Source: Pomacea canaliculata (Eukaryota > Mollusca > Gastropoda > Architaenioglossa > Ampullariidae). Taken from it: DNA of 64,000 nucleotides. The notes beneath the pieces are model-generated. The model ran no database searches and was not told the DNA's origin. It worked only from the letters and a program-made list of their open reading frames with translations. The stretch's first letter is position 1. Each line of letters opens with the position of its first letter. The position numbers and the translations under genes are program-made. Positions 19,474 to 64,000 of the stretch are shown one piece after another. The stretch is taken from NCBI RefSeq assembly GCF_003073045.1, contig NC_037600.1, positions 12,524,515 through 12,588,514 of the forward strand, read 5' to 3'.

Positions 19474-22400
19474 CTACCAGAATATCACGAAGTCTTGCAG
19501 CATTTCGGTCATGGACTGTTCTGTCTCCAGCCCCAGCCCAGCACACAGTCCAGTGAGCTTAGCACGTGCCGCCTGGACCGTTGGAGCCCGCACGGCCACG
19601 CTGCCCAGAGGCTCCTCCAACACCGACGACTCGTGGACGGAGTCCCATTCGAAGCTGTCGGCCAGCTGCCGGAAGATGACGCTTCCTTTGTCGTGCAGTC
19701 GCTGCAGATGGCTGGGGGTGACGGTGGTTGAGAGGGCTTGCCTGTGTCGGGACGAGTACAGCACCATACCCATCAGCTGCCCCCGGTCGTGGCGGGCCTG
19801 CTGGCTGCAGTAACCCTGCACCAGGCTGTTGGGGGCCACCGCCTGCACACCGCACGCTGCCATCAGCGCCAGATGTAGCAGGTCGACGTCGTAGAGGGCA
19901 CGGATCCACTCCCGAAAATACCGGAGGCCTCCCACATCAACGCGGAGCCCCACCAGGCGGGGGCCGTACGCCGTCATCGTCAGCTGCACGTTAAAGACAC
20001 CGTTGGACAGGCTCAGCTTACTGCAGATTGAGTCAGCTGCCATCAGCAACTGGCGCTCTTGCTCTGCAGCAGGAAACAAAGAAACCTCCCAAAAATGTGG
20101 TCACTGATGTCACCTGTCACTAGTGAACCGACCGAATTCTGCTGTCGATATCACCATCAGTCTCGGGTACATAAGCGAAGCTTTGATTTCTGCTGCAAAC
20201 CTCGGTAGTAATCAGGACTAGATGTGAACGTTTACAAATTTGAGTGAACTTGCTATGCTTGTTATTTATGTACTGGAATGATGGAATGTAAGGAAACAGA
20301 GCTTTATATCATTTGCACAGATAATAAAGGTTGGGTGGGGGTTGGGTTGTCTTACTCAAACCAAGCGTGACAAACAGAATGTGTGAATACTGACAATTAT
20401 GTATAATATTTCTAACAAATACAATGAAGAATGCTATCTAGTCAAGTTTATAGCCATGTGTCTAGACACACATTCTTTCGTAAAACTGTAGAGTGAATTA
20501 CATTTCCGCTATAAATTGATTTTAAAGTTTCATTAATTTTTTTGTTGTTACCTGAATGTGCCGGTTGCTAGAGTTCTGGTTAACAGAGTCAACTGTACCA
20601 ATGGACGACTGGATAGCCAAGCGAGAACTTTCGTTCTGACAGTAGTCGCGGCCCCTTATCACCTGGACCGTTTGAGACTTTTGGAAGGTCATCATACGAA
20701 TAACTTATCGGAATATTTATTCCTTCATTTTTATCGGTAGGACGCCGATAACCAGCCTGCGCTTTGCAGACGACTTCGATCTGAATCCAGGCACAGAGAA
20801 GATCTTACCAACAGACTCCCCGACAGCGCTATTGTCTTCGGAATGGAGACCACCACTAACAAGAACAAAGTCACGGTTAAAACCAACGGCATCGACAAAG
20901 CCCATGATATACAAACCGGAAAAGAGGGAGTTAGAGACGTAGATGAAGTCAGGGGGTAAAAGTTAGCTGTAGAAATAGATAATAACCCGTACATGAACCA
21001 CAACCGCTTTCCCGGTTTCTGGAAGTGTGTTTTGGCGATCCTAGGTCCTGTCAAAGTGAAGATGTGTCAAGCGAAAAACAAACCGGACGAACTTACCCTT
21101 GGACAGCACAGACGGCATGGCGGCCGTGGTCTCGGATAATGAAGGCAGCCGAGGAGGACCTCTGTCGGAGACGAAGGCGGCCATGACCTGGCCCTCAAAT
21201 ATCACGAGGTTCACGTCGTGGTCCGTGCCCTCCAGGCTCCTCGTCAGCACGAAGGCGTGCACAGGGTCCAATCCCATGTCAGAGGGGTCTTTGTCGGAGA
21301 GTAGCGCGTTCTGGGCCTGCTGCATGAAGGTCCTGGCCTCCTGCAGGGTCTTGACGTGCCGCGCGCCTCCGGTCGGTGGGCCGTGCTCCAGCCGCAGAAC
21401 GGCCGGCAGCGGAACCTGCCCACAAAGGTCACGTGACAAACCATGTAATTATTCTATTTTAAGCCTTATGGGGGCCAGATTTACGTGAGGGCAGTGCTCT
21501 TCTCATCTCCCTCGATGCCTCACCTTCCCCAACCCTCTGAGCAACCATTCCTGCCAGCTGGGTCAAGTGGGGGAAGTTGGCTGCGCTGCTCGGGTATCGA
21601 ACCAGCGCCCCTTACAGTTCTGACACCTGCTCCCTAACCACTTCGCTATCCACTTTACCTTACTCTTTGACCGTAACCTTATTAGTACCTGCTCCCCCTC
21701 CGCTCACCCCCTTTTTTCCATCTCTCGCTTTTACCTGTTTGACGGCGTGCACCAGGTCCTCAGGTGACGTCACTCGCACGGTGGGGCTGGCGTAATGGTA
21801 GGTGTTTGGTTGGTGCGGGGGCCAGTACTCCCCCAAGAGGGCCTTCATGACCAGCCCCTTGGTGATCCCCATGGCGGAAGCGTAGGACGGCGCATGCGTT
21901 AAGCCCAGTGCTTCTGCCACCAGGGCGGCGAGTGCCACGCAGTCCTCCCCGCCAGCCAAACATCCGTGAACGCGTTCCACGTCCGCTTTCACGCGGCGAG
22001 CGATGACATCAGCATGCTCGCGGTCGCGCGAGTGGTCGCTCAAGTCATATGACAGGAACCTGTTCACATGCTCGCGGGCGAAGTGATCCATGTTCGAGTC
22101 CACCAGAACTATCTGAAGATGAGGATGTAAAAAAGAAAGCGGTCAAGTAAAGAAAACAAAAAAAAAAACAAACAAAAAAACAAACAAAAAAAAAAAAAAA
22201 ATCTATCCGTCATTAAAGCATAAGATAGGTAAGGGATGAAGATAGAGGGGGATAGTGTAAAAAGAGCGGCCGGGAGTTGGGGAGGGTAGGAATTAGTGTT
22301 TTACAAGCTAGGAGGTATTTAGCAGGCCCTGTAAACATGCAGAGAACATGCCGGAAACGAGATCTGACCTCAGACAGATTATCACTCTACTGGTGAGAAA

Positions 22401-25400
22401 CGCTTAAAGTATCATTCACTCGGTTCTTAAGATAAATAAAGTAGGTTATTGCAAAAACAACAACAAACGCTTGACCTCACCGCATTAAAAAAGTATAGGG
22501 TTCTATTATTCCATTTGTTCGTTTACCTTCACTGCTTTGGGTGGGGTTGGGAGACGATAGGGGATAAGAGGAAAAGAAAAAAGTAGTGTTCAGTACGTTT
22601 TAATTTCTCACCAACCTTGACTTCAACTATCTTGATGGTTGAAGAAAAGGTTGACGGGTTGAGTTCCGTAAAAGTAAAAATTCCGTCAAACTGAATTTAC
22701 CACCAACCTTCACCCCAAAGTCTTGAGCATCTTTCCACAGAGTCCTGTTGGCGAAACCTCCGGTCCCCAACACCAGCACCACTTTGTTTTTCATGAGGAA
22801 GCGTTGAGACCGCGCAATCATCGTCTGCACCAAGGTCCGGGTGGCTTGACCCCTCACCTCTTTGTCTGAGGATTCGTAGAGAGAACTTGCATACAGGCAG
22901 TCGTGGGCGTTCACCTCGATAACCAAGGGCGTTATAACTCCGTTCATGCTGGTCAGTATAAAGTCCATTCCTGACACACACACAACTAAAATAATGAATG
23001 CTTATTTCCATTAGAAGGCAATATCATAGGTTCTCACACTGTGTTGCTAAAATAAACCTTTTGGCAACATTAATGTAGCCTTCCAAAGCTTAGAAAAGTA
23101 GATTGGCTGTTTAAGACTTATTAATTAAAGACCACGTATGCAACTCAGCCCAGATGTGCACTGAGAAGCGGGAAGAAGAGATTTACTTCGAACTTCGATT
23201 AAAACATGATCTCTGTACACTTCTTACGAAAAATCTGTTGATTAGAAAACAAGAAAGGAGCAAAATGTTTTTGAAGACACACACACACACAGGTACACAC
23301 CCTTTTCGAATTTGATGAGAAATAATTATCTAGTTGCAATGTTAGACGCACGGAATGTCAGAACTATGCAGTAAACACCCCGGTGTGTCGCACTTTTACC
23401 AACAGTCGGAGGGCAGACACGCCATCTTCCTCACCGATCATCTCGGTCTGCGCGGCCACCCCTCCCCGCTCCTCGGCGCTTAGCTTCTCCTCCAGTCTGA
23501 TCAGCGTCAGCATCAGTCTCTCCGACGACTGCTTGATGCTGTCCCTCAACTCCTGTCGCTGCAACGGGTCCGTCAGGCCCCAGCGCTGCAGGGTGGTGTC
23601 CAGTGACGTGCCGATCGTCTCCGAGCCGCCGAACGGTGAGCCGCCGTCGGCCACACCTGTGAACACCTGGAACCGCAACACCGGCAACATCAAATCACGA
23701 TCGTGCCTTAAAAAAACAAAAACAGCATCAAAACAGTGAACAGCTGGCTCCATCAAGAAACAAAATGCGGGTGGTGGGTGGAACTAGCTACCTGCGATCT
23801 TCATTGCACGACCGACAATGTTGTAAGTTATTCATTTTGTACTGTTTTCAAGCTACTTTAATTTTCCCCCTCTTAATTAAGTTCATCACCACCTGCTTTG
23901 TTTTTAAGTTATTAAATATTTATGTTAGGCATTTCACAGTGTCCAGGGGCCGATTTATCTTCTTGAAAGAAATTAAAACATAACAGATCTCAGTTTGTGT
24001 AATTTTCTTCCTGCCTTGCCCTTTTGTGAAGGACATACCTAGGTGCCAGGTGTGAGAGCGGCAAGAAGTGCTTTGATGCCCAGACCTACCTGCGTCATGC
24101 GAGCCCCGTTCTGTGGAGTGCGGCACGCGATCGCTCGAATCCTGAAGCTGATGTCCCTGTCTGATAATGAGAGCATGGGAAATGTCTTCAACATTTTATT
24201 TTTGAAAGAGTTGCAATGGTGGAATCACAATAAACACTCACAATTATTCCTGGTAGTAGTCATACTATCACCCAGATTTGGTGTATCTTGTATTGATCTT
24301 TACCCAACTGTTGGATCAAAAAAAAAAAAAAATGTGCACGCCACCAGTCCATTAAATTAATTTTTCAGCATACTTCTTATTGTACGTAATTATGACAGCA
24401 CCTTACTGAACGTTCGTAAAAAAGCAGCAGGCTACGAATTACACAGAAACAAATACTGAAGACAGGACAAATTATTTCCGAAGTATTCTGAATAAATCGT
24501 CAAGCAATCAAAGAATGGTTTAGAAAACTTTTCGCATATCCAGTGTGCGCGTGCCCGTGTGCGTTTGTGTGTGTGTGTGTGTGTGCGTGTCTGTGTGAAC
24601 GCGCGTGTGTGTGTGTGTGTGTGTTTGTGTGTGTGTCAGTGTGTGTGTGCGCGCGTGACAGCAAGCACAAGACGATAGCCAGCGACACACTGGACATCAA
24701 GCTGACCGTGCGGGTTGAAAGCGTGATGGCCGATGTTGGTGGGCGGAGCAGGTTTGAAGACCTTGTGGAAGGAGTCCAGCAGGATGCCATCATTTTGATC
24801 GATGCGGCTCCCTAGCTGCAGGATCCCTTCAACGATAGAATTCACGTCGTGGACGTCGTGGAAAGACACACCTTTACAACAGTTCCAGAGAGGGCCAAAC
24901 GGTTTCACGACCACCTGCAATGGGGGAAAAAGTCAATTCACTTAAATCGTCTCATGCCGTTACGTAGACACTGTGAGCCCCTTACCCTTCATCGCCTTTT
25001 CTGCCACCAGGCTACCAAAGAATTCACCAATATTTTTAAACCTTTAGTTTTGTGTGTACAATTTTACAGAAAATTATTCTGAAATCACCTGCTCTCTAGT
25101 CTTGCGCCGAGGCACGAACTGACCTTGTCATAGGGCTTCATGGCCTCTTGCGCCAAGAAGTTCTCGACGAGCGGTTGGAGCCACTGTGACGTCATTCCAG
25201 TCGCCGGCCGCGTGTGGACGGTAATTTTAGGCATGGCCTCGTACATGTTGTCGTAGACCGCCATGCCGTGCTGCGGCAGCAGGGCCAGCGTCACCGGATG
25301 CTGCACGCCGGACGCCGCGCACATCATGCGAGTCAGCAGCTTGTTGTCCGTGCGGCGGTTGAGCTTGAGCGAACTGGCTACCGGACACTCCAGGTCAAAG

Positions 25401-27781
25401 GTCACCAGCTTCTCGCCCTCGTAGCGCCGGCCGTCCGTGGTGGAGCCGTTGAGGTGGTTGATGACGTAGGTGACGCGGCGCGGCGGGTCGAAGCTGTCCA
25501 AGTAAGTCTGGCCGCCGGCGTCGGCCGTGATGGCCGTGTGCACCAAAAGCGACGACAAGGACGGGTCTTCGGCACTCGGCTTTCGCGACGCCCATGATCC
25601 TGTCATCAACAAGAGAAAGCTGCCTGGGCTTTGGCGATTTCCTGAAAAGGAAGAAACACTACATGAACATAACTATTCAAAGAATTAAAAACGACTATGG
25701 ATTTCGCGGAAAAGCTTATACTTTGACGATGATTCTGGCAATCTTACCTTACCATTTAAACTAGGTAGCCATGGTTACCGATTCTTGAACTCAACTCTCA
25801 CCACATTTAAACTGCAGCACCCTCGTCCAGCTCCAGTGGCTTCAATCGATCACGTGATTTCTATACCTACTGTCGGCACACGTGTTGTTATGAACAGGAG
25901 AGTTGGATGTGTGTATAGTTGGATTGCTGTCTGCCAAGACCAATGCTTAGCCTCTTGCGAAGTTCTCCGCTGTTAGTCTCGGCGAGCCTAAACAAAGAAT
26001 GTGACTAAACCGGAAGCTTTGTAGTATCATGCCTCGTTTTAGTAGCTAACTGGAAAAAAAATGTCTGCCAGCAGTCCAGTAATACAAGTTCGTGATTAAA
26101 GGCAGATCATTGAAGGCTCATAACTCCAAGCCTCAGTCCGCTCTGTCCAACTGTTCAGTTCCGCTCCCTTCTGTTCAACATCCTCGTACCCAGTCTCTCC
26201 GCTCAAAGCTCCTAATCCTTAACTTGTCTGCAACACGTAGATTGTCCTTAATGACGAGCGGCGAAGATACCCGAAAGATTACCCAGGATGCTCCACAATG
26301 GCATAAATAAATGGTCTCGTTGCCTTTCAGAATAACTCCTTTAGGCGGTAGCAGACTACTGAAGGAATTCACGCTCTCCTTTCAATGTACTCAAACATCT
26401 TCTGCGTACGCCGTCTTCGACAGGAGCAGACGACTTCGTATTATCCAAGGAAAAAAATGAAAAAAAAATTGACATAAATAAACACATTCATTGGACAGAA
26501 TCGATCACGTGGCCTATGGATGATAACTCATTTCACAATCTCGCCCAGCATTCCTACTGCGTTGTAGGTCGAGCACACTCGCTCCTCGATATACTAAATT
26601 TGAACCAATAATTATAATAACAATCGTAATGATAATACAGCCCAAAAATCTACGCATGCCGGGTAAGAGTTACCAAACTTTAGCCGAAGACCGTTATCAT
26701 GCAAAAGTTCGTTTGTTGAGATTCGTTTTCTTGTTGTGATGTGAACCTTTTCCCACGTGATCGTTTGCCACGCCCCCTCCCAGACCAGGACAGGAAGCTG
26801 AGGGATGTTTATCTGAAGAACAGCCGATAGAGCAGCGGGTGTGGTTCGATCTGCAGGTTCTTCTAACGAACAGTGCAGGTGTCCTCTTTCTGACGACAGC
26901 TTCGTGGATAAAATTCCGAAAGAATGATCGCAAGGGAGTTGAGACTGAGTGTTTGTTCATTGTTCATTCAGCCTTTGTGACTAAATAAATCTCACTGGTG
27001 TTTACACAGAGCCAGCCGAGCTGAACGTGCTTTACAGCCACACACACACAGGGTGGAATGCCAGTCGCCACGAGGAATGTCAGCATCAGTGAAAGGAAAG
27101 GGAGAGATGGAGGAAGAAGCGGTGTGGGTAGGGAGAAGAAAATGAAGGTAGGGAGAAGAAAAATTACATGGGGATATAAATAACTAAATGATAGTCCCAT
27201 CACTTCTTCTTACTTGACGAAAATGATAGAGATGAAGACGAAGTCAACGAAGTCGACAGTAAAGATGACAGCGATGACAATAAAAAAGACGACAACAAAG
27301 GTGCGATAAATAATACCAAAATAAGTGATTTACCCTCAAAGAACGGCGCCTGGCTCTCTTGCAACTCCGCGAGGTAAACAATCGTGATTTCGTTCCCTGC
27401 CGGACATCTTGGGTCGTCCCTCCTGTCCACCGTGGGCGGCCGACCGGTTTCCCTCAGAACTCTCTGCAGGAGGAAGAACTCTAGCTGCACCGGGCACAAG
27501 GACAGTCCCCGACACACCTTCTGGTCGCCGTTGCCCTCGATGGTGAGGTCGGCCTGCAGCAGCGCGCGGTGGAAGCAGTCGTAGTTGACACCATTCTGGG
27601 ACAGGATGGTGTTGTGGTCGGCGTCGCGGCCCAGGTGACAGTAGATGCAGTAGCAGCGGGCGTCCTGGACCTTCTCACACGTGCTGTGGTCGCATAGCGA
27701 CTTCCACTTCCCTTCGAAAAACCCGCGTTGTGGGTAGCGGTCACAGTCCATCTTTTCCGCTGGGAGACTTTTCTCCGATAC
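19474..27781 (-). CDS. CARNS1-like: Carnosine synthase 1-like tandem ATP-grasp ligase, nine coding exons
   Basis: Coding exons (minus): 27751-27334 (exon to 27781), 25641-25124, 24914-24707, 24160-24090, 23666-23435, 22970-22708, 22112-21735, 21415-21097, 20063-19474. All junctions are GT-AG and phases agree, giving about 998 residues. The C-terminal 600 residues follow vertebrate CARNS1 block by block: RGGVAAQTEMIG, GTDHDVNLVIFEG, AAFVSDRGPPRLP, GVFNV. CARNS1 joins beta-alanine to L-histidine using ATP in the cytosol. The N-terminal unit has VVVKPFGP (Lys about 316) and IEVN (about 499-502). The C-terminal unit, catalytic in vertebrates, reads VLRLEHGPP, NVQL and LVGLRVDVGG where I recall KLE, NVEL and LIEINPRMGG, so its metal ligands appear lost. 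The first 100 residues hold about nine cysteines. Substrate may not be histidine/beta-alanine. The ATG at 27751 is preceded by an acceptor at 27782-27784, implying a 5' leader exon. Family is sure; activity is not. Confidence 0.88.
21480..21660 (-). mobile_element. tRNA-derived SINE in ATP-grasp intron
   Basis: The minus strand shows an RNA polymerase III A-box-like TAGCGAAGTGGTTAGGG (21,632-21,648) and a B box GGTTCGATACC (21,593-21,603) at tRNA-like spacing, followed by unrelated sequence. It lies in the intron between the exons ending at 21735 and starting at 21415. The head could not fold as a working tRNA by eye, so it is called a SINE rather than a tRNA gene. Ends are approximate. Confidence 0.6.
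22291..22410 (-). mobile_element. Degraded SINE copy in ATP-grasp intron
   Basis: Shares, in the same order and orientation, GTGTTTTA, AGCAGGCCCTGTAAACA, the CATGCAGAGA block and ACGAGATCTGACCTCAG with the complete SINE at 62,062-62,239. Several blocks are diverged or missing. It lies in the intron between exons 22970-22708 and 22112-21735. Confidence 0.55.
24541..24656. repeat. TG/CG-rich microsatellite beside an ATP-grasp exon
   Basis: About 115 bp of imperfect (TG)n with CG interruptions. It starts about 50 bp downstream (in the direction of transcription) of the exon that ends at 24707, inside the intron. Read on the transcript it is a CA-rich tract close to a splice donor. Confidence 0.85.
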
Positions 27782-40830: not shown

Positions 40831-40910
40831 GATACAGATAGGTAAGGCTAGATACAGATAGGTAAGGCTGGATACAGATAGGTAAGGCTGGATACAGATA
40901 GGTAAGGCTT
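40831..40910. repeat. 20-bp tandem repeat, four copies
   Basis: Four consecutive copies of GATACAGATAGGTAAGGCTG with at most one or two changes. The last copy abuts and partly overlaps the stop codon of the neighbouring minus-strand coiled-coil gene. Confidence 0.9.
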
Positions 40911-41772
40911 ATTTTGTTTGTGGAACACGGCGTCCCGCCAGCGAATATTCTGGTTCACGAGGAACGGTTTGTGTGCTGCCAGACTTGATTTCCGACACGT
41001 TTGATGCCAGAACACTCGCCTGCAGCTGCAGCATTTCCACCTTCTCGCGCAAGGCTGACCGTTGACGCTCACCCGCAGTGACGTCAGAGGTCAAGCTCTG
41101 TAGCCGCGTTCGAAGAGCCTCGTTCTCGTCCTGCAGTTTCATCGTCTTTGTGGACAGTTGCGAGAGCTGTAGCTGCAGCTGTCCTAACGCCAGCTGCTGC
41201 TGCTGATGTGCTGCAGCTGCCTGCGTCATCTGCTGCGAGATGGCCAAGTTGGACTTCGTCTCGATCTCTTGCGCCTTGGCCATGAATTTCCTGCTCGCTC
41301 CTTGGAGCTCCTTGACGGTGGCTTTCAGTTGGGTGTTTTCTGACTCCAGTGCTTTCAAGGCGACGGTCAGGTGAGTCAGTTGGGAGGAACCTGCATCATC
41401 CACACTACGTCGTCTTCTGGCCGATCTTCTTGCCTCCACTAGTTCTCGTTCCATAACCTTTTCCTTCAAAGCGGCATTTAGATTATTCATAATTAGACTG
41501 AAATCATCTTCACCAGCAAAACTCTGGAAAGAATTCTTCTCATCTGTCTCACTTTTGACAAAAAGAGGGAAAGCTGCGGCATTTGACTCCGAATTGCCGG
41601 CAGCTTTTGGGACATCATCATCCCCAGTGTCCATTGTCGTCTCCGTGAAAACGCCGTCGTTACCTAGGCGACTAGACCTCGCTGTCAAGTGTCTTGTACG
41701 ATCGTGGATGATGACGATGGCGCTGCCCATGATCAGCACAAATGTTACAGAAGCCAGAAGTCGGGCTGACAT
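40909..41772 (-). CDS. Secreted coiled-coil protein, C1q-family paralogue without C1q exon
   Basis: A single open exon of 287 codons. The N-terminus MSARLLASVTFVLIMGSAIV looks like a signal peptide. RRRR at about 119-122 is followed by a heptad-rich coiled coil containing QQQQLALGQLQLQLSQLS and TMKLQDENEALRTR, nearly identical to the other cluster members. In those genes this exon ends with a splice donor and joins a C1q exon. Here it ends in PREPEYSLAGRRVPQTK and a stop. No C1q-like frame lies on the same strand between 39,700 and 40,909, and a 20-bp tandem array abuts the stop. An acceptor TTTCCTTTACAAG about 23 bp upstream of the ATG suggests a 5' leader exon. It may be a secreted coiled-coil protein in its own right or a decaying copy; the intact 287-codon frame favours a recent or retained role. 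Confidence 0.7.
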   Translation of the reverse strand: MSARLLASVTFVLIMGSAIVIIHDRTRHLTARSSRLGNDGVFTETTMDTGDDDVPKAAGNSESNAAAFPLFVKSETDEKNSFQSFAGEDDFSLIMNNLNAALKEKVMERELVEARRSARRRRSVDDAGSSQLTHLTVALKALESENTQLKATVKELQGASRKFMAKAQEIETKSNLAISQQMTQAAAAHQQQQLALGQLQLQLSQLSTKTMKLQDENEALRTRLQSLTSDVTAGERQRSALREKVEMLQLQASVLASNVSEIKSGSTQTVPREPEYSLAGRRVPQTK

Positions 41773-42441
41773 TGTTAGAGATGGTTAGGTTTTCTTGTAA
41801 AGGAAATACTGGAACAAGCATATAAACAAAAACGAATGATCATCATTAAAACGTCAACAAAACAACAGCAAAAAACAATAGAGGAACTCAAACAAAAAAT
41901 AGTACTGGAAATAACACAAAAACACAACAAATGTCATGACTGGTCAATAAAAAACGAAAGATATATTGAATGAGAAAAATCCAGAAAGCATGTTGTGTTT
42001 ACCTACCTGCCTGTCTGTATAATCATACATTTTGTTTAGTTATTGTCTGAATTATTATAGAGAGAGAGATGGGGCAGGGGGAAAGCAGAGGGAGGTTATG
42101 AAAAGGTACATAGAGTAAGAGAAAGATGACTGGTTGATTGTTTTGGCAAGAAAGTATTCCATTTCATTTGATTTCACACTGTAAGGAACAAAGAAACCTC
42201 CAACGGCCGAACGTTTGAACAGGTTTCACGTACAGATCGAGAAAGACTGAGAGAAACAGTGACAGGGACAGAGACACAGAGATTGCATGAAAGCATCCCA
42301 TTCAGCATCAATGGAGGGTTGACCATATAAAATTCACGCTATACATCTGTCAAGGGAATGGGGAGAAGTTTCTTTAAAAGTTTCAATTACTACTGGTTAG
42401 TTAATAAAATGCAGAAACATTCAAAAATGAATCCACATTAC

Positions 42442-45275: not shown

Positions 45276-46776
45276 GGTATGAATATTATTCCTGAACTTT
45301 ATTTGAAATATCATGTATGTATTTAATTAGTAATTCAATATTTCGATGAAACGTGCTTTCATCGGGCATGTTTCCTAACTTAATATAGTAAAAAAAAAAC
45401 TATTTTTTTTATTGTTCTTAAATTAATCCTTTACTATTCCTTTTTCGTCGATGGTTGAGAGTAGTTTGTTCATTTCTACGAATATCACTCCATTAGTTCG
45501 TCTAACACCACCACTAATACATCTTCTTCTTTGCGATCATCGTCTTCATTCTCTGCTTCGTTTATTTTGTTCTCTGTTTCTTTCATGTTCCCTGTCACTG
45601 GATCATTTTGTGTGTGATTTCTCACCTTATTGCCTACATTGCCAGTAACCGTGACTAACGAAAAAACAGATGACACTACGCATATGAATAACTTTGCAAT
45701 GCGGGCCACTTGATGTTTTGTTTGTGAGTTGCAAAAGTGTAGGGACACCCATGACAACTTTCAAAGGTTTGAACGAATACAACACAATAAGTCAAAAATT
45801 TTAAGTAATAATCATAAAAAATGGAAAAAAAGGAATAAAAGCCAAATGGTTAATGAGGTGTGGCTCATCATCGGACATAGCATATTGACAGCTTTTTGTC
45901 TCTAGCCGAAGATGAATTTCTGAAGAAACAAGGGAGCAGTCACAATCATGTGACATTTCCTTCTCTTCCACTCCTTCCTTAATGTTTTAATAGAATACAT
46001 AAGCATTACCTTTGACCCTAAAGATTACTGCCAATACATTGGTTTTTTATGTATGTTTCAGTTTTTCTTTTTCAAAAAAGCAGACCAGAAGGAGCTGAAG
46101 ATGTTAACCATATTTCTGGTTATTTTCATAATTATCTTGGTGAAGTGCGACACTACCGTCGTGACATACGGTCGCACGGAGAGCGTTACACCGAGGTCTA
46201 GTAGGCTAGGTGAGGACAGTGAGGGTTTCGAACCAGGAACATCAGAATCATTTTCTCCATCTGCATCTCAAGGGTCACGATCAAATGTCACAGTCTTTGC
46301 TCGTTTCTGGGAAAATGAGCCAAAGGAAACACGTGTCTCATCAACTTCTGATCAAGCAGCTGATATCAGTTTAACTGAAAGAAGCTCAAGCAGCCTTCAA
46401 GATGAAAAAGAACGACTGCAACTGATGAGAAGACGACGTGATATAAATGAAGCCAGTTCTTTTCAGATGACACGGCTTGCAATCGCCATGGAAACACTCG
46501 AATTAGAGAACAGACAGTTAAAATCCACTGTCAAGGAGCTTCAGAGTGCAACAAAGAACTTTTCAACAAAGGAGCAGGAGTCTAGCTTCGCCGTCTCACG
46601 CAGCACTTCAGCAACAGCAGCTGGCGATAGGACAGTTACAGCTGCAGGTGTCGCAGCTGTCCACGAACACGATGAAACTGCAGGACGAGAACGAGGCTCT
46701 TCGAGCACAGATGCGCTTGCGAATGGAAGACACCGACTCTCGCCACGAGCGGATGCAGTCGATGATGTTGATGATT

Positions 46777-47028
46777 TCAAACCTGACGACAAAATTACAA
46801 GCGGAAAACAGTTCTATTTACTCGCAGCTGTTGAAAGTTTCGGACCTGACCTCAGGGCTACAAGCAGAAAACGACTCCATTTACTTACAGCTGTTGAAAG
46901 TTTCAGACCTGACATCATGGTTACAAGCGGAAAACAACTCAATTTACACACAGCTGTTGAATGTTGGTGATCTGATGGCGGGGCTACAGTCAGACAACAG
47001 CTCCATCTACTCACAGCTGCAGGCTTTG
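46777..47028 (+). repeat. Four 63-bp units coding 21-residue coiled-coil repeats
   Basis: Units start at 46777, 46840, 46903 and 46966. Each codes 21 residues, three heptads, of the pattern SDLTSGLQAENDSIYLQLLKV with substitutions (first SNLTTKLQAENSSIY, last GDLMAGLQSDNSSIY). The array is absent from the 58-kb and 41-kb paralogues, so it expanded in this gene only. Each unit carries an N-x-S/T-like NSSIY or NDSIY site. Confidence 0.9.
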
Positions 47029-47179
47029 TCCGCTGACGTCATCCAGCGGCGGGCGCAGTACGAGGAGCAGCACACGGCCTTGCAAGAAAAAGTCCGGATG
47101 CTTCAAACACAGACGACTAACCTGGACTCCAACCTGTCCAAGCGCAGCTCCACACTCGAAGAACGGCTAACGTCTCACG

Positions 47180-47426
47180 CAGGCTCGTTCTTAGCCCCCG
47201 CGGGGCCCGAGGCAAAGGGCATGTGCGGGGCCCTCACGCCACGATCACACGGTTTTAGTTGGGATCTAAAGTCACTTTTTTCCTCAGGGATATCTCGTCT
47301 TTTATCATTGACAGCACGCTGATACACATTACAATATAAGCCTACGATTAATTTATTTGTAACGTTCCTCAATAGCGCGGGGCCCTAGGCAGATGCCTCG
47401 TCCGCCTGCCCCTAAGCACGGCCCTG
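47180..47426. mobile_element. hAT-type MITE inserted in C1q-family coding exon
   Basis: The 247-bp element starts CAGGCTCGTTCTTAG and ends CTAAGCACGGCCCTG. It is flanked by a perfect 8-bp duplication GTCTCACG (47172-47179 and 47427-47434), diagnostic of hAT elements. Internal blocks GGGGCCC and GAGGCA are mirrored near both ends. Removing the element and one duplication restores similarity with the paralogue at 58,705-58,745. The net insertion of 255 bp is a multiple of three, but the element contains a stop in the reading frame. Confidence 0.88.

Positions 47427-58029: not shown

Positions 58030-58032
<3 letters not shown>

Positions 58033-58115
<83 letters not shown>
58033..58115. repeat. 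Perfect (TG) microsatellite, about 41 units
   Basis: Uninterrupted TG dinucleotides, ending about 35 bp before the ATG of the C1q gene and about 26 bp before its likely 3' splice site. It can be read as an open Cys-Val frame in phase with the gene, but that is a composition effect. Confidence 0.95.
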
Positions 58116-58118
<3 letters not shown>

Positions 58119-58149
58119 TTGTCTCTGTGAAAGCATACAGGATCTAAAG

Positions 58150-60034
58150 ATGTCAGACAGATTGCTGCTTATTTTCATGCTTATGCTGGTCACACGAGGA
58201 GTTATTGTCGTGACACATGGCCACGCAGAGCTCGCTACACCGAGGCATGGAGGGCTAGGAGACAATAGTGACAGTTTCCACAACGACAGTTCGGATCATC
58301 AAGTTGAAATCGCTACTCAAAGATCTTCACCAGCTATTGCATCCTTCGGGAATACTGAGACAGGGGAGAGAAGAAGAAGATACAGTGTAGAAGATTCCAG
58401 TTCCTCTAGTCCGGTTCGGCTTGCTGTCGCCATGAAAGCGCTGGAATTAGAAAACAAACAGTTGAAATTCACTCTCAAGGAACTTCAAGCAACAACAGAG
58501 AAATTTGCAACAAAGTGGCAAGAGTCAAACTTTGCTATTTCTCAGCTTACTGCAGTCAACCAGCAGCAGCAGCTGGCTATAGGACAGCTGCAGCTGCAAG
58601 TGTCGCAGCTTTCCACGAACACGATGAAACTGCAGGACGAAAACGAGGCTCTTCACACACAAGTGCGCTCGTTACAGGAGAAAGCCGACTCTGCTCTTGA
58701 AGAAGGCCTAACCTCTCAAGTGATCCAACTTCAACAGAAAGACCAGGAACTGATGCAGACGATTATAAATCGCAGTAAGTAGTTGACCATTTATCACTCT
58801 GTTGGGTTTTTAAACTTGCTATTTACTTTTATTCTAGAAATGACTCTATTTCCTATCGATTTGTAATCTTAAGGGAACATCCAATCAACTTGAAGCAGTT
58901 TTTGCAGTTTCAGCGTGTAAACAGAAAAAGAGGGTGAAATGGTGGTCTATACATCTCAGAACCTCTATGAAAATGCATTTTTTCAAAGTTTAGTAGACTG
59001 GAGAAGCCAGACGATTCTTTGTTGAAATTTGTACGAGCTTTTCGAGTTCAAGAAGTTTAGTCTGGACACATCCGTTTACATGGCTACAGGAGCAGGGTCC
59101 TTAATTTCCTTAATTTTTCGCCTCGTTTTTCCAAGAGTAGCTCGTGTTAAAATCGTAAAAGAGGAAGTTTTGAGTAGTCTACTTTTTCTCGCAGCAAAGC
59201 GGGAGTTTTGGCATTGTAATTCTTCTCCCAAAAGATAAATAATAAAGAAGAATGCAAAATTTTATTCCATTTATGTTTTTTTTTATTACTACCTTACATT
59301 TATTCAGGACTAGTAGGATGCATTTTTTTAAAATGATTGGGTAAAACACAATGCAAGATACTTTTGTAAAAATTTAGATGAATACCAGTCATTTCAACGT
59401 TCCGTTCTTGAGATACACTCCACAAAACATCACCATTGATAGAAAGATATCAAAATACAAATATTAATGGGAAGGCCTCAGCGGGCTACCAAGCTGGGAT
59501 TGTAATGTTAATAAGGTCTTTTCATGTACAAACGTGACATCACGACTGTGACTTTTCTTTGTGCATGGTGACATCTGCAGCTTGTAGCTCGAGAACAGAA
59601 ATGTGATATAAATTATTCTTGTTTTATTCATAGCTCATGTTGATAAGGTTGGATTCCACGCCAGACTTAGTATTTCCATCGACGCCAAGACGACCGGAAC
59701 TCTCGTGCTGGACAGTGTGGAATTCAACTTTGGGGATGGCTATAACAAGACAACGGGTATCTTCACGGCCCCTGTTGGTGGCGTTTATCTGTTTTTGGTC
59801 AACATTGCTGCCAACTCTGCTGGGGAATCGGTTTGGATAAAGATTGTTTTGGGGCAGAATGAACTCTGCAAAACATATTCGCGGTACTCTACTGAGATAG
59901 AGATGGCGAGTTGCCACGCAGCAACATCACTTATCAAGGGTAACCAAGTGAGGGTAGTTATGGTTGGATCGGCCAGTTATAAAATCCGTGGAGACTTCTG
60001 GACCACGTTCACTGGGGTGTTGATAAAAAGCTGA
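58150..60034 (+). CDS. Secreted coiled-coil C1q-domain protein, two coding exons, intact
   Basis: Exon 1 58150-58774 (donor CGCA|GTAAGT, phase 1) and exon 2 59634-60034 (acceptor TTTTATTCATAG) give 341 residues. MSDRLLLIFMLMLVTRGVIV is a signal peptide. RRRR lies at 74-77, followed by Ser-rich linker and a coiled coil from about 88 to 205 with QQQQLAIGQLQLQVSQLS and DENEALHTQVRSLQEK. The last 130 residues form a C1q domain: VGFHARLSI, GIFTAPVGGVYLFLVNIAA, IKGNQVRVV, FWTTFTGVLI. C1q domains assemble as trimers; the coiled coil replaces the collagen stalk of vertebrate C1q, as in many mollusc C1qDC proteins, which act as lectin-like immune receptors. An AATAAA occurs at about 60,533. The alternative in-frame ATG inside the TG repeat at 58,036 is rejected because it would encode a Cys-Val run and hide the signal peptide. 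Confidence 0.88.
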
Positions 60035-62616: not shown

Positions 62617-64000
62617 TCACAACAACAAAACACTTTTATGTAATCTGACCACGAGACCCAGTTCTTTGACTCCTCGCTGGTTGTTTGTCCGTTCAGGTTC
62701 TCTCCGGATCAGCACCACGGTGAACGTCGTCCAGTTGCCTCCCCAGATCTGGCGAGTACTTGAACCTTCCTTAACGATCCTTATCCGCTGACCCTTCAAG
62801 ACCCTGTTTGCACCGTGGCAAGTGGCAAGCTCTAAATCGTTTTCTAATCCCGAGTAGCAGCCGGTCAGTGGATTCCCGTTGACTTCAATGTAAATCCTTG
62901 CAGCAGTGCTAGTACCGACGCCACCTATGGTGGCCATGAAAAGATAGAGGCCAGTGACCGGGGCAGTGAAGATACCCGTGGTCGAGTCATAACCTCCCCC
63001 TCCATTGAAATGCACAACGTCGAGTTTAAGGGTTTCGGTGGTCGCACCTGCCACGTTTTGGCTTAACCTTGCATGAAATCCAATCAAATCTTCTGAAGCT
63101 ACAGAAAAAAAGAAAAAAGAAAAAAAAAGAAAAATGAAAAACCAAATTAAGACAAGGACAACATCAAACTGATTGGCGTCGTTCAAGTATGAAACATCTA
63201 CAAAAGACTCTAGAATTTTATTAAATTTCACCAACATTAATTTTGCAATTTTTAGCGTGAAAGGCGTTATGGTGATTAGTAAAAAGCGGTGAGAAATAAT
63301 TCGAAACTAAAGGTAGGGTACTCAGTAGAACCACATGATTTCAAACTGAACTCGCAGTGATGAAAGAGGTGTATCGCCCCTACAGCATCGTGGCCTTGTT
63401 TTAAGTGACGAATACGATGCAGACCCCTTAAAGAAATATTCTTTATCATGTTTATAAAAATTAGTTGTAGGCATTGGATTTAAAGAAATACTAGTCTGGG
63501 TGTCGTGACCATTTCGATGATGATTCTAAACCTTTTTGCTAGTTTTGCTCTTTCAGATAAAAAAAAAAATGTTCGTTAATTTTAAGACATTGATATAATT
63601 TCAAAATTATAAGCGAATAATTCACTTTATTTCGAGGAAAATCCTTGTTTACAGCATCTATAATCTCATGTGTCCACAAGAAAAGGTCAATCAGTGACGT
63701 AATTAGGTCAGTTACCTATTGAGTATACTCTTAGCTTGACTACTGGCTACAGCCTTGACGCAGCGTATCCATGTACAATGATGACGTCACAGCTAAATCG
63801 AGCCACTGTAAAACTGTACCCTGGTTATTAATTGTTAGAAACTTAATCTCCATCCACAGAAAATGTACGGTCTACAGGTAAACTCAATGTCAACAAATCT
63901 GCACACATTTTGTCTTTTCTAGCTTATAATTAGATTAACAGCATTAATTAATTAAGACAAAAAGAGTGATTAATGGCGAACTACGTACTGCGTCTTATGA
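62617..64000 (-). CDS. C1q-domain gene, 3' part (continues beyond window)
   Basis: The C1q exon is 63098-62617 (acceptor TTTTTTCTGTAG, phase matching the paralogues). It codes SEDLIGFHARLSQ, GIFTAPVTGLYLFMATIGG, WTTFTVVLIRRE and then runs about 25 residues past the usual end to LHKSVLLL. At the window edge the upstream exon ends at 63989 with donor CGCA|GTACGT, identical in position to the 47-kb paralogue; only its last 12 bases are inside the window. The intron is 889 bp. The coiled-coil part, the signal peptide and the start lie outside. The domain is intact, so the gene may be functional. The C-terminal extension arises because the paralogue's stop codon position is shifted out of frame here. 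Confidence 0.82.

Follow-up and report, generated by a model that had tools for sequence, protein, structure and literature searches.

Which half of a two-unit ligase does the work when one half has lost its catalytic residues? The question is raised by a gene on the minus strand of a 64,000-nucleotide stretch of DNA from the snail Pomacea canaliculata (assembly GCF_003073045.1, contig NC_037600.1, positions 12,524,515 to 12,588,514), here called the window. A first-pass annotation, made from the letters alone, had described it as a relative of carnosine synthase, CARNS1, with the catalytic half apparently swapped. Carnosine synthase (EC 6.3.2.11) carries out the ATP-dependent joining of beta-alanine and histidine and is usually described by its C-terminal ATP-grasp domain alone; in vertebrate CARNS1 the carnosine chemistry sits in that C-terminal unit (C unit). 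Judged by the homology of both units and by a gene structure shared with a paralog, the window gene is by descent a member of the CARNS1-type two-unit family. Its motifs and relatives make it likely, in our view, that it encodes a tandem ATP-grasp ligase of this type in which only the N-terminal unit (N unit) has a complete Mg-ATP site.

In the spliced model, the gene runs from 27751 to 19474 in nine coding exons and encodes 998 amino acids, with a frame that is open throughout and eight introns that are all GT-AG. The length equals the one previously given, but the earlier span of 19474..25124 has to be extended: the gene starts at 27751, and the first two coding exons (27751-27334 and 25641-25124) had been left out. 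The exons of the spliced model are as follows.

27334..27751, minus strand: coding exon 1, a Cys/His-rich N-terminal extension common to the paralog C13
25124..25641, minus strand: coding exon 2, N-unit pre-ATP-grasp part, which carries the linker Lys, K240 (DNKLLTR)
24707..24914, minus strand: coding exon 3, the strand Lys of the N unit, K316 (VVVKPFGP)
24090..24160, minus strand: coding exon 4, N unit, with R390, an Arg in all 21 bacterial rows
23435..23666, minus strand: coding exon 5, N unit
22708..22970, minus strand: coding exon 6, D485 and E501-x-N503, the metal residues of the N unit (GMDFIL ... VIEVNAHDC)
21735..22112, minus strand: coding exon 7, the pre-ATP-grasp part of the C unit, linker Lys K655 kept
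21097..21415, minus strand: coding exon 8, C-unit strand Lys changed to R704, E to D761 and D to N765
19474..20063, minus strand: coding exon 9, C unit without its metal residues (now Q829, G841, R843) and without the next Arg (now D845), then the C-terminal domain and stop

All motifs quoted in the first-pass annotation are present on the minus strand, and their key residues are encoded at these positions:

24905-24903, minus strand: K316 of VVVKPFGP, N unit
22965-22963, minus strand: D485 of MDFIL, N unit
22917-22915 and 22911-22909, minus strand: E501 and N503 of PLVIEVNAHDC, N unit
21394-21392, minus strand: R704 of VLRLEHGPP, C unit
19986-19984, minus strand: Q829 of FNVQL, C unit
19950-19936, minus strand: G841, R843 and D845 of LVGLRVDVGG, C unit

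A passage of PMC4431377 names four typical features of ATP-grasp proteins: a positive linker residue, usually Lys, after the pre-ATP-grasp domain; a Lys on strand 2; an acidic residue (Asp as a rule) on strand 4 of the kinase-like domain; and an ExN motif on the last strand (strand 5). The N unit of the window protein has all four (K240, K316, D485 and E501-x-N503), so the first-pass claim that it keeps the ATP-grasp motif holds for the complete signature. In the C unit the linker Lys (K655) is kept and the strand Lys has become R704, which leaves a positive charge in place. The acidic strand-4 residue (E to Q829) and the ExN motif (now G841-x-R843) are gone, and the Arg that follows ExN has become Asp (D845). 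With all of these changed, the description of the C unit as a pseudo-ATP-grasp is, by motif, correct. Among 11 aligned C-unit rows (three from the snail and eight bacterial ligases from plasmids), only the window protein lacks the ExN Glu as well as the acidic residue that precedes the last hairpin. Pfam ATPgrasp_N reaches 24.7 bits in the exon 7 region, under its cut-off of 27, and Pfam ATP-grasp_4, also with a cut-off of 27, gives no reported match in the window protein.

Searching the same genome at the protein level (E<=1) recovered three loci: the window gene on C11, C13:5776095-5787694 and C2:35254299-35249708. Splicing by the same logic gives 998, 990 and 907 residues, respectively, although the C2 model may miss a 5' exon. 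C11 and C13 share the same nine exons and phases and are 67% identical. The three proteins carry three different combinations of sites. In C13 both units are intact (VVVKPFG, GMDYIL and VIEVNAHD in the N half; ILKLEYG, FNVEL and LVEINARMGG in the C half). In C2 the N unit is degenerate (VQVRLYH, GIDYVL, VLEVKVQG) and the C unit is intact (VLKMEHG, FNVDM, LIEVNARMGG). In the window protein the N half is intact (VVVKPFG, GMDFIL, VIEVNAHD) and the C-half signature is lost (VLRLEHG, FNVQL, LVGLRVDVGG). ATP-grasp_4 is recognised in the C units of C13 and C2 at 36.0 and 41.7 bits. At the key codons the window gene and C13 are two or three bases apart (K AAG in C13 against R CGG in the window gene, N AAT against R CGC, R CGC against D GAT, E GAA against G GGG). 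An alternative C-terminal exon carrying the lost signature was considered and rejected, as neither a pattern scan of the window nor the genome protein search (E<=1) found one at the locus.

Two further features of the gene can be noted. The exon 1 extension is about 145 residues long and has the Cys/His pattern CDHSTCEK...CxCIxCH in both the window gene and C13; the protein search of the snail genome found no C2 counterpart, and the C13 version matches no Pfam family at E<=0.01. At 21209-21406 and 19936-19995, the codons compared with C13 end more often in G or C in the window gene, a remark that covers these two stretches.

Relatives of the whole two-unit protein occur in bacteria. A scan using the C unit plus bacterial ligases found, on Elusimicrobia contigs, open frames that hold an N half together with a C unit. 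Five of the 80 loci scanned have an N half by BLAST (L034, L035, L036, L037 and L041), and only these were used. Against this small database of 80 frames the best E values of the snail N halves are 3e-32 for C13 (with L041), 3e-28 for the window protein (with L034) and 9e-5 for C2 (with L034). From a second set of 24 loci 16 were kept; L114-L117 are the same genes as L035, L041, L037 and L034, L135 is the same gene as L132, and L134, L136 and L137 are one gene with a broken frame. Of the 294 genomes drawn from the phylum of L037, 21 carry the N half; four of these 21 supplied query rows and 17 are new. The N half was found in none of 195 genomes in the phylum of Pyxidicoccus, 398 in the phylum of a Burkholderiales metagenome-assembled genome and four host genomes of other C-unit relatives, each group having no positive control inside it. 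No relatives appeared in a first scan of genome contigs or in two scans of viral contigs. In plasmids, tblastn returned 182 records with the C unit and three with the N unit at E ~3, which were taken as chance.

Both sites are conserved across the 21 bacterial rows. The rows do not count as independent: L035 shares 97% identity with L036, and two other pairs, L123/L124 and L126/L133, are close as well. All 21 have the N unit's strand Lys, Gly, Arg, Asp, Glu and Asn; 20 have its His, and 19 the Asp that comes next. In the C unit the linker Lys and the strand Lys are present in all 21; the first Glu, Asn and Arg occur in 20 of the 20 rows with a letter there, and the second Glu in 19 of 20, L131 having Asp. 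At the four typical positions of the N unit, the linker Lys is found in C13 and in all 20 bacterial rows with a letter and is Ile in C2; the strand Lys is found in C13 and all 21 bacteria and is Arg in C2; the acidic residue is Asp in all 21 bacteria, C13 and C2; and ExN is found in all 21 bacteria and C13 and is ExK in C2.

Some of these bacterial frames extend beyond the ligase. In L034 and L037, several hundred residues upstream in the same frame resemble, by eye, a multi-pass membrane transporter, a part that matches no Pfam family at E<=0.01. The N half also lies within very long open frames in L127, L129 and L130 (5940, 2423 and 2091 amino acids), which suggests larger fusion enzymes in Elusimicrobia. 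Two other Elusimicrobia loci, L038 and L042, combine a C-unit-like ligase with a second unit that by eye resembles the D-Ala-D-Ala-ligase type of ATP-grasp, and this looks like another route to a two-unit ligase.

The evolutionary rates of the snail genes are the mirror image of their motif losses. Terminal branches for the N and C halves are 0.25 and 0.44 in the window gene, 0.11 and 0.14 in C13, and 1.42 and 0.32 in C2. With C2 as outgroup, unique residues of the C half number 59 in the window protein and 20 in C13 (p 1.3e-5); for the N half the counts are 25 and 16 (p 0.21). Of the columns conserved both in C13 and in 90% or more of the bacterial relatives (46 in the N half, 59 in the C half), the window protein has changed 3 N and 13 C columns (Fisher 0.03), and C2 has changed 26 N and 8 C columns. 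The 13 include the four residues K, E, E and N named in the first-pass annotation, with a hypergeometric probability of 0.0016 that is post hoc, these four having been chosen because they looked changed. A Fisher value of 5e-6 for seven C-unit sites is not relied on, as two of the sites were added after being seen changed. The earlier suggestion to compare dN/dS between the halves gave a usable figure for one of them: about 0.12 for the C half against C13, a rough value with dS ~2, the N half being synonymously saturated. Outside the motifs, each exon of the C half still has about 60-64% identity to C13. Because its dN/dS is low, the C half looks maintained as a protein although inactive by motif.

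The full-length tree (support 0.983) and the C-half tree (0.988) pair C11 with C13 as sisters. The snail clade adjoins L035/L036 with a support of 0.906, on a very long branch; bacteria and animals may share the gene through transfer or through old descent.

Since C13 and the bacterial relatives have both units intact, the simplest reading is an ancestor with two sites and the loss of one. Most likely, as judged from these sequences, the ancestor of the family had two sites, the window gene lost its C site and C2 separately lost its N site. The first-pass annotation had proposed that activity moved to or stayed in the N unit. That it moved is not borne out, as one site was apparently lost instead, and the part that stands is the kept N-site signature. 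In the ancestral enzyme, each site would have made an acyl phosphate and one amide bond. In the manner of ATP-grasp ligases, the N unit of the window protein (K240, K316, D485, E501 and N503) would bind Mg-ATP, phosphorylate a carboxylate to an acyl phosphate and join it to an amine; the C unit would be kept folded and non-catalytic as a scaffold, regulator or allosteric part. The encoded protein is most likely an amide ligase whose N unit is predicted to do the work, its C unit being a pseudo-ATP-grasp that has been maintained. It probably does not make carnosine by C-unit chemistry, and C13 and C2 could provide that. A broader proposal is one we put forward tentatively: CARNS1-type enzymes may have begun with two sites, the front one making a second amide bond, and the snail may keep dual (C13), C-only (C2) and N-only (window) forms, the last a ligase dedicated to the front site, with a product other than carnosine.

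Several points weigh against these interpretations. The snail N unit is not recognised by Pfam, NCBIfam or PDB profiles, and its identity as an ATP-grasp rests on the bacterial relatives, the motifs and a medium-confidence model (pLDDT 65.6). Bacterial relatives with two sites come from a single phylum, out of three whose genomes were searched for the N half. In the C unit, the change of the strand Lys to Arg is conservative when taken alone. In the N half, the window branch is longer than that of C13, and three conserved residues have changed (Y to F, T to N and S to C). Finally, the tree of the N half alone puts C2 inside the C11 and C13 group, unlike the full-length and C-half trees, a position that we read as probable attraction by the very long N branch of C2.

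The fold evidence comes from the bacterial N halves. Pfam ATPgrasp_ST matches two of them weakly (L037 at 28.2 and L035 at 25.6 bits, cut-off 31.4) and is not listed for L034. The predicted model of the bacterial L035 N half (pLDDT as above, pTM 0.62, from a five-row alignment) matches DcsG with the best E value (5.8e-8), followed by RimK (1.1e-7), and also Pby1 and tubulin tyrosine ligase. By title, the 50 structure matches listed for it are ATP-grasp enzymes or tubulin complexes, with low TM-scores of 0.25-0.55; chain F of the matched tubulin complexes is presumably tubulin tyrosine ligase. Comparison of N and C profiles gave no match with two rows each and, with a deeper set, one weak match over 34 columns (E 0.0076, probability 5%). 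A joint model of the two units was set aside as too uncertain (pLDDT 57.8, pTM 0.37).

Four other explanations were weighed. The whole window protein could be a pseudoenzyme in which neither unit works, kept to regulate or bind the active paralogs. The C unit is dead by motif and the window gene is faster than C13 in both halves, as such a role would allow, but we regard it as unlikely, given that all four defining features of the N unit are intact and that 3 of its 46 deeply conserved columns are changed against 26 in the degenerate C2. A mixed enzyme, with the window protein supplying the N site and the C2 protein the C site to restore a two-site reaction, would explain the complementary motif losses within one genome and the retention of both full-length chains, dead units included; yet C13 already has both sites, the losses lie on different branches of the full-length tree and not between sister copies, and we think trans-complementation of this kind improbable. 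Still less probable is a C unit that is alive with a changed chemistry through its new residue set: the identity to C13 outside the motifs and the rough dN/dS would fit, but the loss of the acidic metal residue, ExN and the next Arg together better fits a loss of Mg-ATP binding. A sequence error, which the first-pass annotation had named as a possible refutation, or a young pseudogene would account for the accelerated C half but is scarcely credible, and error and decay (the latter already thought unlikely) were rejected on nine exons with clean GT-AG splice sites, an intact frame with no stop or frameshift, multi-base codon changes scattered across two exons and a low dN/dS.

Elsewhere in the window, four frames are probably, from their sequences, a cluster of C1q-like genes:

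40909-41784, minus strand: candidate C1q-like frame
46522-47322, plus strand: candidate C1q-like frame
58030-58782, plus strand: candidate C1q-like frame
62617-63306, minus strand: candidate C1q-like frame, with a C1q domain at 35.8 bits (cut-off 23.7)

Three of the four share the coiled-coil stretch QQQLA..QLQLQ.SQLSTxTMKLQDENEAL.

Carnosine itself has been reported from this snail. As cited in PMC9121591, PMC13203566 and PMC7160176, carnosine in P. canaliculata rises on cold acclimation (Matsukura et al. 2008); as cited in a passage of PMC7770485, the measured carnosine content of the apple snail is low. The same passage gives muscle without histidine dipeptides for 11 of 12 aquatic molluscs and crustaceans tested, which speaks against a general role. 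In the open-licence papers we found none that links carnosine synthase with Elusimicrobia. The titles and abstract openings listed from the open-licence literature held no description of a two-site CARNS1 relative or of a half-specific loss, which is weak evidence of novelty. The N unit can now be traced to intact, conserved bacterial relatives, with dual, C-only and N-only versions in one genome. The role of the front half thus becomes testable: the three snail proteins could tell the job of each half and whether the product of the dual enzyme is different or longer. The three versions also bear on whether the vertebrate layout, as described in the first-pass annotation, is derived.

Among known systems, carbamoyl phosphate synthetase has two ATP-grasp units per chain, each with its own step; we draw the likeness as an analogy only and claim no shared ancestry for the pair of units. 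RimK, DcsG and tubulin tyrosine ligase are the best structural matches of the bacterial N-unit model, with low TM-scores (0.28-0.55 among the matches listed), and have no sequence match from the snail N unit. The closest solved relatives of the C unit are the L-amino acid ligases BacD (PDB 3wnz, E 4e-10) and BL00235 (3vot, 6.6e-9), which are active, single-unit enzymes. The Elusimicrobia ligases have the same order of two ATP-grasp units as the window protein, and their N unit, with VVVKPSG and ExNDHDS, is homologous lengthwise to that of the snail; they differ in having both sites intact, in not sharing the N-terminal extension and in often lying within a longer frame. According to passages of PMC11591149, the giant clam has a carnosine synthase, TsATPGD, without the ATPgrasp_N domain of its vertebrate homologs, and carnosine in its gill. 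The snail paralogs resemble CARNS1/ATPGD1 carnosine synthase in having an ATP-grasp_4-type C unit with ATPgrasp_N in front. The vertebrate motifs given in the first-pass annotation (KLE, FNVEL, LIEINPRMGG) match those of C13 and C2, and the layout of C2, with its degenerate N unit, is the one given there for vertebrates. The window gene differs from CARNS1/ATPGD1 in having lost the C-unit site and kept that of the N unit.

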